Virus record (IMG/VR): IMGVR_UViG_3300027749_000515
Span: 1-21,947 of that record
Source of the DNA: a virus
Strand: one strand, 5' to 3'
Length of the DNA: 21,947 bases
The translations under genes and the position numbers were made by a program. Position 1 is the first letter of the stretch, and every line of letters begins with the position of its first letter. The notes under the pieces are model-generated. The model had not been told where the DNA came from and searched no databases. It saw only the letters and a program-made list of their open reading frames with translations. Of this stretch, positions 8,675 to 11,850 are shown piece after piece.

Positions 8675-8798
8675 TTCGTGTCTCCAGTTTAGCTATCAGG
8701 TTGACGCAACGGTCATATGCTCGGTAGGCAATGGTCAGTTGGCGTGACCGTAGTTTGAGTTCGGCCTTGGCCGCTTTAAGTTGTGCTTTTAGTAGCAT
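8646..8798 (-). CDS. Small basic helical protein (50 aa)
   Basis: A 50-codon frame starting at the ATG at 8798, with a near-perfect GGAGGA ribosome site that lies inside the last codons of the helicase gene; the two genes overlap by 10 bases. The product (MLLKAQLKAAKAELKLRSRQ at the start) is one long Lys/Arg/Leu-rich helix, with a single Cys at position 31. It could be a nucleic-acid-binding or coiled-coil adaptor. Its position right after the helicase hints at a partner role, but that is a guess. Confidence 0.62.
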   Translation of the reverse strand: MLLKAQLKAAKAELKLRSRQLTIAYRAYDRCVNLIAKLETRIEKHLARSK

Positions 8799-10099
8799 AG
8801 TTCCTCCATTGCAATATTAGAAATAGCGCGCTTGTTGTGCAGCGCCGCCCAGATGCGTTCGTCCACGGTCTTGTTGGTCAGCATGACGTAGCACCACACG
8901 TCGTGGCGCTGGCCGCTGCGGTGCAGCCGTCCTACGGTCTGTTCGTACAGTTCGAGCGACCAGGGCAAAGACAGGAAAACAATCCGGCAGCCGCCGTGCT
9001 GAAGGTTGAGCCCGTGGCCAGCCGACTTGGGATGCACCAGCAGCAGTTCAATGGCGCCAGCGTTCCATCGCTCAATAGCACGGTCGTCGTCCAACGTCTG
9101 GGCGTGGGCATAGCGCCGCTTGAGTTCGGCCAGTTCCTCTTGGTAGTTGTAGACAATGAGCGTGTTGGCACGTTGGTTCTCCTCCAGCAACTCGTGCAGC
9201 CGGTCAAACTTGGCCGTGTCGTACCACACTGGCGTCTGCACCGTGATCCACTTGCCGGGCACGTCTGAGGGCGTCTGTACGGTGTCGTACACAAACCCGC
9301 TGGCAAGCTGCTGCAACTTGCCGGTGACCACGGCAGCGTTGACGGCGGTGATGTCCTCCAGCTTAAAATCTTTTTTCATGGTGTCGTAGGGCTTGCGATT
9401 GTTCAGGTCGCAGCGCACCTCCACTGTGTGCAACGGGGGCAACTTGTCGCTGTACTCGCCTGCGTCCAAGACAAAAGTGGCAGGCTTAATCACGGCCATG
9501 ACCTTCTCCAAACTACCTTTGCGCGGTGACCACTCGCCAAAGTCGGGGTTGATTAGCACGAAATACTGCTGCATGAACGCGCCCTTGGAGCGCCCCAGCA
9601 ATGCCTGGTCAACGATCTTGCACTGGCCGAACACATCCTCCAAGCCGTTGCTGGTGAACGAGCCGGTCAGGCCCCAGCGGATGCCAATGGGCGTCAGGAA
9701 TTTAAGCAGGTCTTTGAAGCGCTTGCCGCTGGGGTTCTTCAAGCGCGTCAGTTCGTCGAACACCACCGCGTCAAAGCGCCCCTGCGGCAAGTTCTCGTAG
9801 TTGGTCACCACCACTTGGGCGTCTGACGCGAAGGCCGCCTCGCGCTGCTTGGCCGTGCCCACGGCGGCGGCCAGCGTGATGTTGGGCGCCCACTTGGGCT
9901 GCTCGGTCGGCCAGACGCTGGCGGCCACGCGCTTGGGCGCCAGCACGAGGAAGCGCTTGGCGTGGCCAGCCAGCAGCATATCCTGCATGGCTGTCAGCGT
10001 GATGGCCGTCTTGCCCGCGCCGACGGGGGCGAGGATCATCGCCCTGTCGCGCTCAAACAGGAAGTCAGCCGCCTGTTCTTGGTATGGCCGCAAATTCAT
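8789..10099 (-). CDS. SNF2/DEAD-like superfamily 2 DNA helicase
   Basis: 436 residues. An ATP-driven DNA translocase of the compact phage SNF2 type. Visible motifs: Q-like start RPYQEQAADF; Walker A APVGAGKT (24-31); motif II VVFDELT (113-118; DELT instead of DEAH, common in phage members); motif III LTGSFTSN; motif V GHGLNLQ (361-367); motif VI QTVGRLHRSGQ (387-397). It should act in phage replication or recombination by remodelling forks. In many phages this helicase accompanies a VRR-NUC nuclease, DUF2800, family A polymerase and primase, all of which are present here. It starts at an ATG with GAGGAAC upstream and overlaps the nuclease gene by 35 bases. Confidence 0.92.
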   Translation of the reverse strand: MNLRPYQEQAADFLFERDRAMILAPVGAGKTAITLTAMQDMLLAGHAKRFLVLAPKRVAASVWPTEQPKWAPNITLAAAVGTAKQREAAFASDAQVVVTNYENLPQGRFDAVVFDELTRLKNPSGKRFKDLLKFLTPIGIRWGLTGSFTSNGLEDVFGQCKIVDQALLGRSKGAFMQQYFVLINPDFGEWSPRKGSLEKVMAVIKPATFVLDAGEYSDKLPPLHTVEVRCDLNNRKPYDTMKKDFKLEDITAVNAAVVTGKLQQLASGFVYDTVQTPSDVPGKWITVQTPVWYDTAKFDRLHELLEENQRANTLIVYNYQEELAELKRRYAHAQTLDDDRAIERWNAGAIELLLVHPKSAGHGLNLQHGGCRIVFLSLPWSLELYEQTVGRLHRSGQRHDVWCYVMLTNKTVDERIWAALHNKRAISNIAMEELCY

Positions 10100-10349
10100 C
10101 TATCTGTTCCTCGTTCCACAAACACAAATACTTCTGATTCAGCCGGATCATGTCCAAAGCAAATTGCTTTTGAAGTTCTGATAGCTTGCCTTTATCGGTC
10201 TTTAATTCCACGAACCAAGTGCTGCCGTCAGGAAAGCACGCTATCCTGTCGGCTACGCCTTTGCGCCCTGGCGAGGTGAACTTCCACGACCGCCCGCCTG
10301 CGCGGGCTACCGTCCAAACAAAATAATTTTCGATGTCTTTTTCTTTCAT
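10065..10349 (-). CDS. VRR-NUC domain endonuclease
   Basis: 94 residues from the ATG at 10349, which overlaps the stop of the upstream gene (ATGA); a longer in-frame form would begin inside that gene. The stand-alone VRR-NUC fold of the PD-(D/E)XK superfamily is clear: GVAD (31-34) supplies the first acidic residue, VELK (47-50) the E-x-K pair, followed by GKLSELQKQF (54-63) with the conserved Gln. Such small phage nucleases are predicted to cut branched DNA structures, in line with the FAN1 VRR-NUC domain. It is paired with the SNF2 helicase immediately downstream. Confidence 0.9.
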   Translation of the reverse strand: MKEKDIENYFVWTVARAGGRSWKFTSPGRKGVADRIACFPDGSTWFVELKTDKGKLSELQKQFALDMIRLNQKYLCLWNEEQIDEFAAIPRTGG

Positions 10350-10633
10350 TTGAAATATAGCTTTAAGACATCTATGATTTCTTGCGCGCAAACTTTTCCT
10401 ATATTAGGCACACGCAAAAGATCATCTTTTTTTAGCCGTATAAGTTGGCTAATCTGCGTAATGTTTTCGCCTTTTAAAGCGTTAACCGTCTTAAAACTTA
10501 ACGGCAATTCTGATATGTCATCGCCCCTAAGTATTTGTTTTGGCTCGACGGCTTCTGGTGCCAGCAGCCGCGTTAGCATCTGGTGCAGTTCTCTAACTTC
10601 TGAGATGTTGTTAGCTTCAAATGTAAGGCGCAT
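10346..10633 (-). CDS. RNA polymerase alpha-CTD-like protein
   Basis: 95 residues. Residues 37-94 match the C-terminal domain of bacterial RNA polymerase alpha: ISELPLSFKTVNALKGENI, then ISQLIRLKKDDLLRVPNIGK, the second helix-hairpin-helix of that fold. Aligning N51 with E. coli N268 keeps the frame gapless to E85/E302. N268, K271, G296, K297 and E302 are kept, while R265 is Lys (K48), K298 is Val (V81) and S299 is Cys (C82). There is no alpha N-terminal domain; the first 35 residues (MRLTFEANNISEVRELHQML...) are of another kind. In the family this domain binds UP-element DNA and activators, so a role in transcription control is plausible. Weak DNA binding or a plain helix-hairpin-helix adaptor is the alternative. 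First gene of the leftward operon. Confidence 0.8.
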   Translation of the reverse strand: MRLTFEANNISEVRELHQMLTRLLAPEAVEPKQILRGDDISELPLSFKTVNALKGENITQISQLIRLKKDDLLRVPNIGKVCAQEIIDVLKLYFK

Positions 10634-10661
10634 GGGGGGTCTCCTGTTGGTAATGTCAAGA

Positions 10662-10694
10662 AGTTTAGCACACTTTTATTTTCTGTGCTACACT
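10662..10694. promoter_or_regulatory. Back-to-back divergent promoters sharing an inverted repeat
   Basis: The 89-base gap between divergent operons holds a perfect 7-bp inverted repeat: TAGCACA (10666-10672) and TGTGCTA (10684-10690), 11 bases apart. Each arm carries an extended -10 box for one direction: TGCTACACT on the plus strand (10686-10694) and TGCTAAACT on the minus strand (10670-10662). The -35 region of each lies in the -10 region of the other. The plus -10 is 28 bases from the 10723 ATG and the minus -10 is 28 bases from the 10633 ATG. RNA polymerase could hardly occupy both. The repeat may also be an operator. No transcription data. Confidence 0.6.
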
Positions 10695-10722: not shown

Positions 10723-11850
10723 ATGCAACACTCCAGTATCGTCGGCGGCTCGACCGCCAAAAGGGTAATCAATTGCCCTGGCTCTGTGGCCTTGGTGGCC
10801 AAGATGCCGCCCAAGCCCTCCAGCAAATTCGCAGACGAGGGCACACTGCTGCACAACGTCATCGCTGAGATCATCATGTCGGACAACCCGCCCGAGCATT
10901 ACCTTGGCCACAAGTACGAAGCGCAGGTGCTGACCCAAGAACTGATCGACTACAAACTCAAGCCAGCACTGGCCGCGCTTGATGAGATCGACCCCAACAA
11001 GGAGATGGAAATTGAAGCTGAAACAAGCGTTAACTTTGGTGACCTACTCCCTGGCGTATTTGGCTCGACTGACCTTATTGGTCGCATGGGCAATCGCGCT
11101 GTTGTTCTCGATTGGAAGTTTGGCGACGGTGTTGCTGTGGATGTCGAGGAGAACCCGCAACTGATGTTCTACGCTGCGGCTGCTATGCGCACCCCCACGT
11201 CTGCATGGGCCTTTGAAGGCGTCACAGAGATTGAAATGGTGATCGTGCAGCCGCCTGCTGTCAAACGTTGGGTGACCACGCCCAAGCGCATCGCTGAGTT
11301 TGAGTTGCAGTTGGTGCAGGCCGTCAAGGCGTCCGAGAAACCCGACGCGGTTTTGCGCTCTGGCGAACATTGCCGCTGGTGCGCAGCCAAGCCGGTGTGC
11401 CCACAAATGACCGGCGCAGTTGACCGCGCCCTGAAGACGATTATTGACAACCTCGACCCGCCGACCATTGCCACCTACCTCAAAAATGCTGATATGCTGG
11501 AGCAGTGGATCACTGACCTGCGCGCCTTGGCGCTCCAACTGCTGGAGTCTGGCGCCAAACTACCTGACTACAAACTGGTCGCCAAGCGAGCGATCCGTTC
11601 ATGGACTAGCGAGGACAAGGCCAAGGTCGCCCTGTTTGCGTTTGGTCTCACCGAATCTGAAGTGTTGGAGACGTCCGTGATCTCTCCGGCCAAGGCTGAG
11701 AAGGCGCTCAAAAAGCGCAAGCAGGCTTTGCCGGACGATCTGGTCGTCGCCATCAGTTCAGGTAACACCTTGGCCAGCGCGGATGACCCGCGCCCCGAGG
11801 TGATGCTCTTGGGTAAGCAATTAACCGCTGCCCTTTCTAAACTCAACTAA
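10723..11850 (+). CDS. PD-(D/E)XK nuclease, DUF2800 family (Cas4/AddB-like cysteines)
   Basis: 375 residues. Nuclease core: DEGTLLH (38-44), GSTDLI (114-119; D117) and LDWKFG (129-134; D130, K132), followed by NPQLMFY (144-150) with the conserved Gln and Tyr. One Cys near the N-terminus (C18, INCPGSV) plus a C-terminal CxxC-x5-C (C217, C220, C226) gives the 1+3 cysteine arrangement that holds a 4Fe-4S cluster in Cas4 and AddB nucleases. The predicted job is processing DNA ends during phage recombination or replication. It is first in the rightward replication operon, with AAAGGA before the ATG, and eight bases separate it from the next gene. The C-terminal third (about 230-375) is extra and unassigned. 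Confidence 0.85.
   Translation: MQHSSIVGGSTAKRVINCPGSVALVAKMPPKPSSKFADEGTLLHNVIAEIIMSDNPPEHYLGHKYEAQVLTQELIDYKLKPALAALDEIDPNKEMEIEAETSVNFGDLLPGVFGSTDLIGRMGNRAVVLDWKFGDGVAVDVEENPQLMFYAAAAMRTPTSAWAFEGVTEIEMVIVQPPAVKRWVTTPKRIAEFELQLVQAVKASEKPDAVLRSGEHCRWCAAKPVCPQMTGAVDRALKTIIDNLDPPTIATYLKNADMLEQWITDLRALALQLLESGAKLPDYKLVAKRAIRSWTSEDKAKVALFAFGLTESEVLETSVISPAKAEKALKKRKQALPDDLVVAISSGNTLASADDPRPEVMLLGKQLTAALSKLN

Follow-up and report, generated by a model that had tools for sequence, protein, structure and literature searches.

Does the small gene at the head of a leftward phage operon encode a free copy of the C-terminal domain of the RNA polymerase alpha subunit (alpha-CTD), and if so, what might a virus gain from it? 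The gene belongs to a phage recovered from an environmental sample, whose complete IMG/VR record (21,947 bases, classed as linear) was analyzed here and is hereafter called the window. A first-pass annotation, made from the sequence alone, had described a stand-alone alpha-CTD-like protein devoid of the alpha N-terminal domain (NTD). The ORF is present exactly as described, with an ATG start on the minus strand, and occupies an open frame of 109 codons. Its features are:

10346..10633, minus strand: alpha-CTD-like gene (95 aa, ATG start), the first gene of the leftward operon
10352..10525, minus strand: alpha-CTD domain (residues 37-94; the PF03118 match spans residues 39-91)
10526..10633, minus strand: N-terminal extension, covering residues 1-36 and predicted to contain one helix (10-23)
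10641..10645, minus strand: Shine-Dalgarno (AGGAG) lying 7 nt upstream of the ATG of the alpha-CTD gene, within the insert described below

Several searches converge on the identity of the domain. The Pfam RNA_pol_A_CTD profile matches residues 39-91 with E=3.7e-14 and 52.6 bits (cut-off 23.8), more than twice the score of the generic helix-hairpin-helix (HhH) models, both of which fall below their own cut-offs (HHH_5, 21.3 bits; HHH_2, 16.6 bits). A phmmer search against PDB chains recovered 53 hits, nearly all of them alpha subunits (best E 2.3e-6), and the two non-alpha matches (dynein regulatory subunit 7 and a DNA ligase) have E of about 1. An AlphaFold model computed from an alignment with 40 phage relatives reaches a mean pLDDT of 84.5, rising to 93-96 over residues 41-90, with an extra helix at 10-23 (a single-sequence run gave a pLDDT of 43). 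Foldseek comparison of this model with the PDB is headed by RNA polymerase alpha chains, with isolated CTDs at a target TM of 0.63-0.85. The AlphaFold-Foldseek comparison that the first-pass annotation had proposed as a check thus bears out the alpha-CTD assignment for residues 37-94, in agreement with the gap-free alignment, Pfam and phmmer; the contrary case, a mere generic HhH unit with nearer kin among repair proteins, finds no counterpart in the profile, PDB or fold searches, and that identity was rejected on the profile scores and the Foldseek folds. Both the profile score and the predicted fold place the protein in PF03118, and on the predicted structure it is a free alpha-CTD fold. The absence of the alpha NTD likewise held: only the CTD matches within the 95-aa ORF, the NCBIfam rpoA models align through their last domain alone, and the N-terminal dimerization domain of a complete alpha subunit is lacking. 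No homologs of the N-terminal 36 residues were found in phage records; the L123 family was considered as a relative of this part, but its full-length alignment is weak and unconvincing there.

The protein aligns without gaps to the alpha-CTDs of Escherichia coli, Acinetobacter, and Comamonas, with which it shares the predicted fold and N268, K271, G296, K297, and E302; it differs from them in lacking the alpha NTD and linker, and is about 33-41% identical. E. coli alpha numbering corresponds to the window residue plus 217, and the alignment to E. coli alpha reproduces both the conserved positions originally claimed (N51=N268, K54=K271, G79=G296, K80=K297, E85=E302) and the altered UP-element contacts (K48=R265, V81=K298, C82=S299). 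Two further departures had been missed: the equivalent of E261 in the sigma-contact patch is Pro44, with loss of the acid, and those of T285/E286/V287 are Lys68/Lys69/Asp70. The chain also stops short of the equivalents of G315, R317, and L318 in the 315-318 surface. The 265-determinant (R265, N268, G296, K298, S299, E302) is accordingly not intact, with N268, G296, and E302 retained. On sequence grounds, R265K, K298V, S299C, and the shortened C-terminus strip parts of the DNA-binding surface and of the surface for CRP-type activators, while the sigma-contact patch is impaired by E261P; these losses tell against the mimic proposed below.

These substitutions set the protein apart even among phages. 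In a comparison with 40 other phage alpha-CTD domains, the R265 position is Arg in all 40 and Lys in the window alone; the K298 position, Val in the window, is Lys or Arg in 32/40, and the S299 position, Cys in the window, is Ser in 32/40. N294 and G296 are invariant across the aligned phage domains. The Arg265 count is not an artefact of the search, since the patterns used either permitted Lys at 265 or omitted that position. Arg at this position is an empirical regularity of the present phage comparison rather than an established definition, and the window protein departs from it; it is otherwise a regular member of the phage alpha-CTD class, viz., a small PF03118 protein that lacks an alpha NTD and is encoded among phage genes. 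It is therefore an outlier among phage alpha-CTD proteins by virtue of lacking the otherwise invariant Arg265 equivalent. Searches of phage, plasmid, viral-contig, and species-genome sequences returned no close homolog, and the collections covered contain only this one sequence of the Lys265 subtype. The sole match in genome_contigs is an 825-aa Pelagibacteraceae protein (L115:3793-6267), which aligns to the domain only; that protein combines an alpha-CTD domain with an apparent sigma-4-like segment. Across 398 genomes, only five matches reached E <= 1e-7, and their frames of 320-348 aa have the length to be expected of rpoA. Recent capture of a host rpoA was considered and is unsupported, the identity to alpha-CTDs of several phyla being only 33-41%.

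How the gene came to its present place is clarified by its surroundings, which comprise the following elements:

10350..10652, no strand assigned: segment absent from relatives (303 bp; net +305 bp, with a 2-nt ambiguous 'AT' junction)
10065..10349, minus strand: VRR-NUC-like nuclease gene, whose ATG overlaps the alpha-CTD stop
8789..10099, minus strand: SNF2-type helicase, the third gene of the leftward operon
10723..11850, plus strand: DUF2800/RecB-like exonuclease, the first gene of the rightward operon
10662..10672, minus strand: leftward extended -10 motif (TGTGCTAAACT), one arm of an inverted repeat
10684..10694, plus strand: rightward extended -10 motif (TGTGCTACACT), the other arm of the inverted repeat

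A scan with the neighboring exonuclease as query yielded 80 related loci, which were aligned to the window. Positions 10350-10652 are missing from every related locus comparable at the site: locus L002, 94-98% identical on both flanks, joins window position 10349 directly to 10653 with a 2-nt overlap, and in MW202483, an annotated complete genome, VRR-NUC and DUF2800 are adjacent with nothing between them. PF03118 has no match anywhere in 50 related records. A 30-aa ORF of OR003940.1 annotated as 'DNA-directed RNA polymerase' (L164:10522-10614) was considered and set aside, as it shows a CxxC pair but no sign of an alpha-CTD; that annotation is probably wrong. The 303-bp insert is AT-rich (GC 0.42 vs 0.55 for the window), and the alpha-CTD gene has a GC of 0.41 and a GC3 of 0.40, vs GC3 of 0.56-0.82 in the neighboring genes. 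The insertion site is the start codon of the VRR-NUC gene, directly behind the conserved leftward motif; the alpha-CTD stop overlaps the VRR-NUC ATG (ATGA), and the insert supplies its own AGGAG. As judged by these alignments, the alpha-CTD gene is a lineage-specific insert, an aspect overlooked by the first-pass annotation, and its composition points to a recent gain. An assembly artefact is unlikely as its source because the insert holds an intact gene fitted to its neighbors.

The same features bear on two further readings. That the gene is a neutral passenger, i.e., a recently captured fragment of no benefit, would accord with its having been seen once and with a composition suggestive of recent arrival, but the intact frame, the retained domain core, the dedicated Shine-Dalgarno, and the clean overlap with the next gene make this scarcely probable. 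HhH domains accompany some structure-specific nucleases, and the ATGA overlap along with the probable co-transcription would fit an HhH partner subunit that serves the neighboring VRR-NUC nuclease in DNA repair or recombination. Yet PF03118 scores far above the HhH repair models, and relatives, including MW202483, carry VRR-NUC without the alpha-CTD gene, i.e., the association is not conserved; we consider such a role very improbable.

The slot itself is variable across the group. In L014:3188-3630, L031:3179-3621 (approximate), and L015 (partial), it is occupied by a gene for a Mom-like DNA-modification protein; several phages have genes 58-62% identical to it, among them a ZF40 gene annotated as Mom-like. 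An alpha-cleaving Rac was considered for the L014/L031 gene and rejected, given the Mom-like character of this gene and the absence of phiKMV-like phages among the matches listed. A C5 cytosine DNA methylase, absent from the window, lies between VRR-NUC and the helicase in L002 (L002:2800-3687; Pfam match), with similar ORFs in the corresponding position in L009, L026, and L073. The alpha-CTD gene is thus located in a region where this phage group carries probable counter-restriction genes. Another slot, rightward of the divergent promoter and just before DUF2800, is filled by differing small ORFs in L004, L006, L022, L025, and L032; Pfam gave no clear match for the three of these that were searched.

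Free alpha-CTDs are a recurring and widespread kind of phage protein, already annotated as such, which the first-pass annotation likewise missed. The wider searches (IMG/VR) recovered phage proteins that measure 52-286 aa (one is truncated by its contig edge) and represent 48 distinct domain cores; many of these homologs bear unrelated N-terminal parts. Small proteins with the alpha-CTD fold and no alpha NTD are likewise found in Mycobacterium phage Mithril, Rhodococcus phage Finch, and Erythrobacter phage vB_EliS-L02, where the protein is listed as ORF 40 (PMC9127768); the N-terminal part of the window protein differs from those of the other phage alpha-CTD proteins. The isolated Bacillus phage Goe8 encodes one near its left end (Goe8_c00050), and the record matches it at two places, the pattern that a terminal repeat would give; this herelleviral protein differs from that of the window in its length (210 aa) and in retaining Arg at position 265 and Ser at position 299. 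None of the papers found reports a functional test of a phage alpha-CTD protein. One architecture, L095:2341-3201, joins an HTH, sigma-70 region 4, and the alpha-CTD, and a sigma-region-4-like signature is present in 9/68 phage alpha-CTD sequences. Such fusions would suit a co-activator or tether, in which the domain would aid the host polymerase at phage promoters through contacts with sigma or DNA, the N-terminal helix binding a partner. The window protein, however, has neither an HTH nor a sigma part, its 36-residue extension has no detected relatives, and sister phages do without the gene, which renders this role improbable here.

The position of the gene with respect to the promoter-like elements bears on its expression. 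It lies directly behind the leftward motif, consistent with the leading position in the leftward operon originally claimed for it. The further claim, that its promoter overlaps an opposing one, stands in part: the two arms of the inverted repeat (10662-10672 and 10684-10694) hold one extended -10-like motif per direction, and both are conserved in relatives, but a sigma-70 scan requiring a -35 box called neither. The leftward motif is found in 63/80 relative loci, in 62 of which its spacing to the leftward start codon is identical, and we infer promoter activity for it from this sequence conservation. From this spacing (window 10655-10667 and the relatives), transcription is predicted to begin no more than about 1 nt from the ATG, for which reason the VRR-NUC mRNA of phages without the insert would be leaderless; the leftward transcript of the window is predicted to have a 22-nt leader with a Shine-Dalgarno. 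A search for a T7-type single-subunit RNA polymerase detected T7 itself, the positive control, but gave no match in the window, in 15 large relatives, or in either of the complete genomes MW202483 and OR003940; the host polymerase is therefore probably used throughout.

The placement of the gene beside an inverted repeat in a divergent promoter region raises the alternative of an autonomous small DNA-binding regulator, in which the alpha-CTD fold would act as a minor-groove HhH module without any role at RNA polymerase, for example on the phage's own divergent promoter. The retained G296-K297 HhH loop, N268, and E302, and the unrelated N-terminal parts of many phage homologs, are compatible with such a module. 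Against this, the main DNA-contact Arg is Lys and K298 and S299 are lost; moreover, the inverted repeat and promoter-like motifs are also conserved in relatives without the alpha-CTD gene, and hence do not need it. We regard this regulator as unlikely, though a serious contender.

Since the gene for this free alpha-CTD fold occupies an accessory slot and directly follows a promoter-like motif that is conserved, we favor interference with alpha-CTD-dependent host initiation. Tentatively, and at somewhat less than an even chance, we propose that this is a horizontally acquired accessory gene for a free alpha-CTD mimic, predicted to be made early and to weaken such initiation. The comparison with relatives shows that the gene came to head the leftward operon when it was inserted downstream of the promoter-like motif, at the VRR-NUC start codon; it arrived with its own Shine-Dalgarno and is coupled to VRR-NUC via the ATGA overlap. 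The mimic, untethered to polymerase, might then bind what the host alpha-CTD binds, namely sigma region 4, activators, or DNA, with a resultant weakening of alpha-CTD-dependent host initiation. With Arg265, K298, and S299 substituted, its main action is more likely to be protein contact than UP-element binding. Extended -10 promoters rely less on the alpha-CTD, and phage promoters of this type could keep working meanwhile. A decoy without minor-groove grip might soak up sigma region 4 or activators and uncouple host activation while the phage extended -10 promoters escape, a scenario, amounting to host shut-off by mimicry, that we hold to be fairly unlikely in this particular form.

Phages are known to target the same subunit by enzymatic means: T4 Alt and ModA ADP-ribosylate Arg265 of alpha (PMC2988021), and LUZ19 Rac provokes cleavage of the alpha linker, thereby freeing the CTD (PMC7552054). 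The window protein would hit the same host surface early in infection; in contrast to these proteins, which work enzymatically on host alpha or its proteases, it would be a mimic and has no enzyme domain. If this is correct, free phage alpha-CTDs would constitute a second, non-enzymatic route against the host alpha-CTD, by mimicry. The near-identical phages with and without the gene offer a clean test pair, and the replacement of Arg by Lys may set DNA binding apart from protein binding, which could reveal the alpha-CTD contacts that phages exploit.
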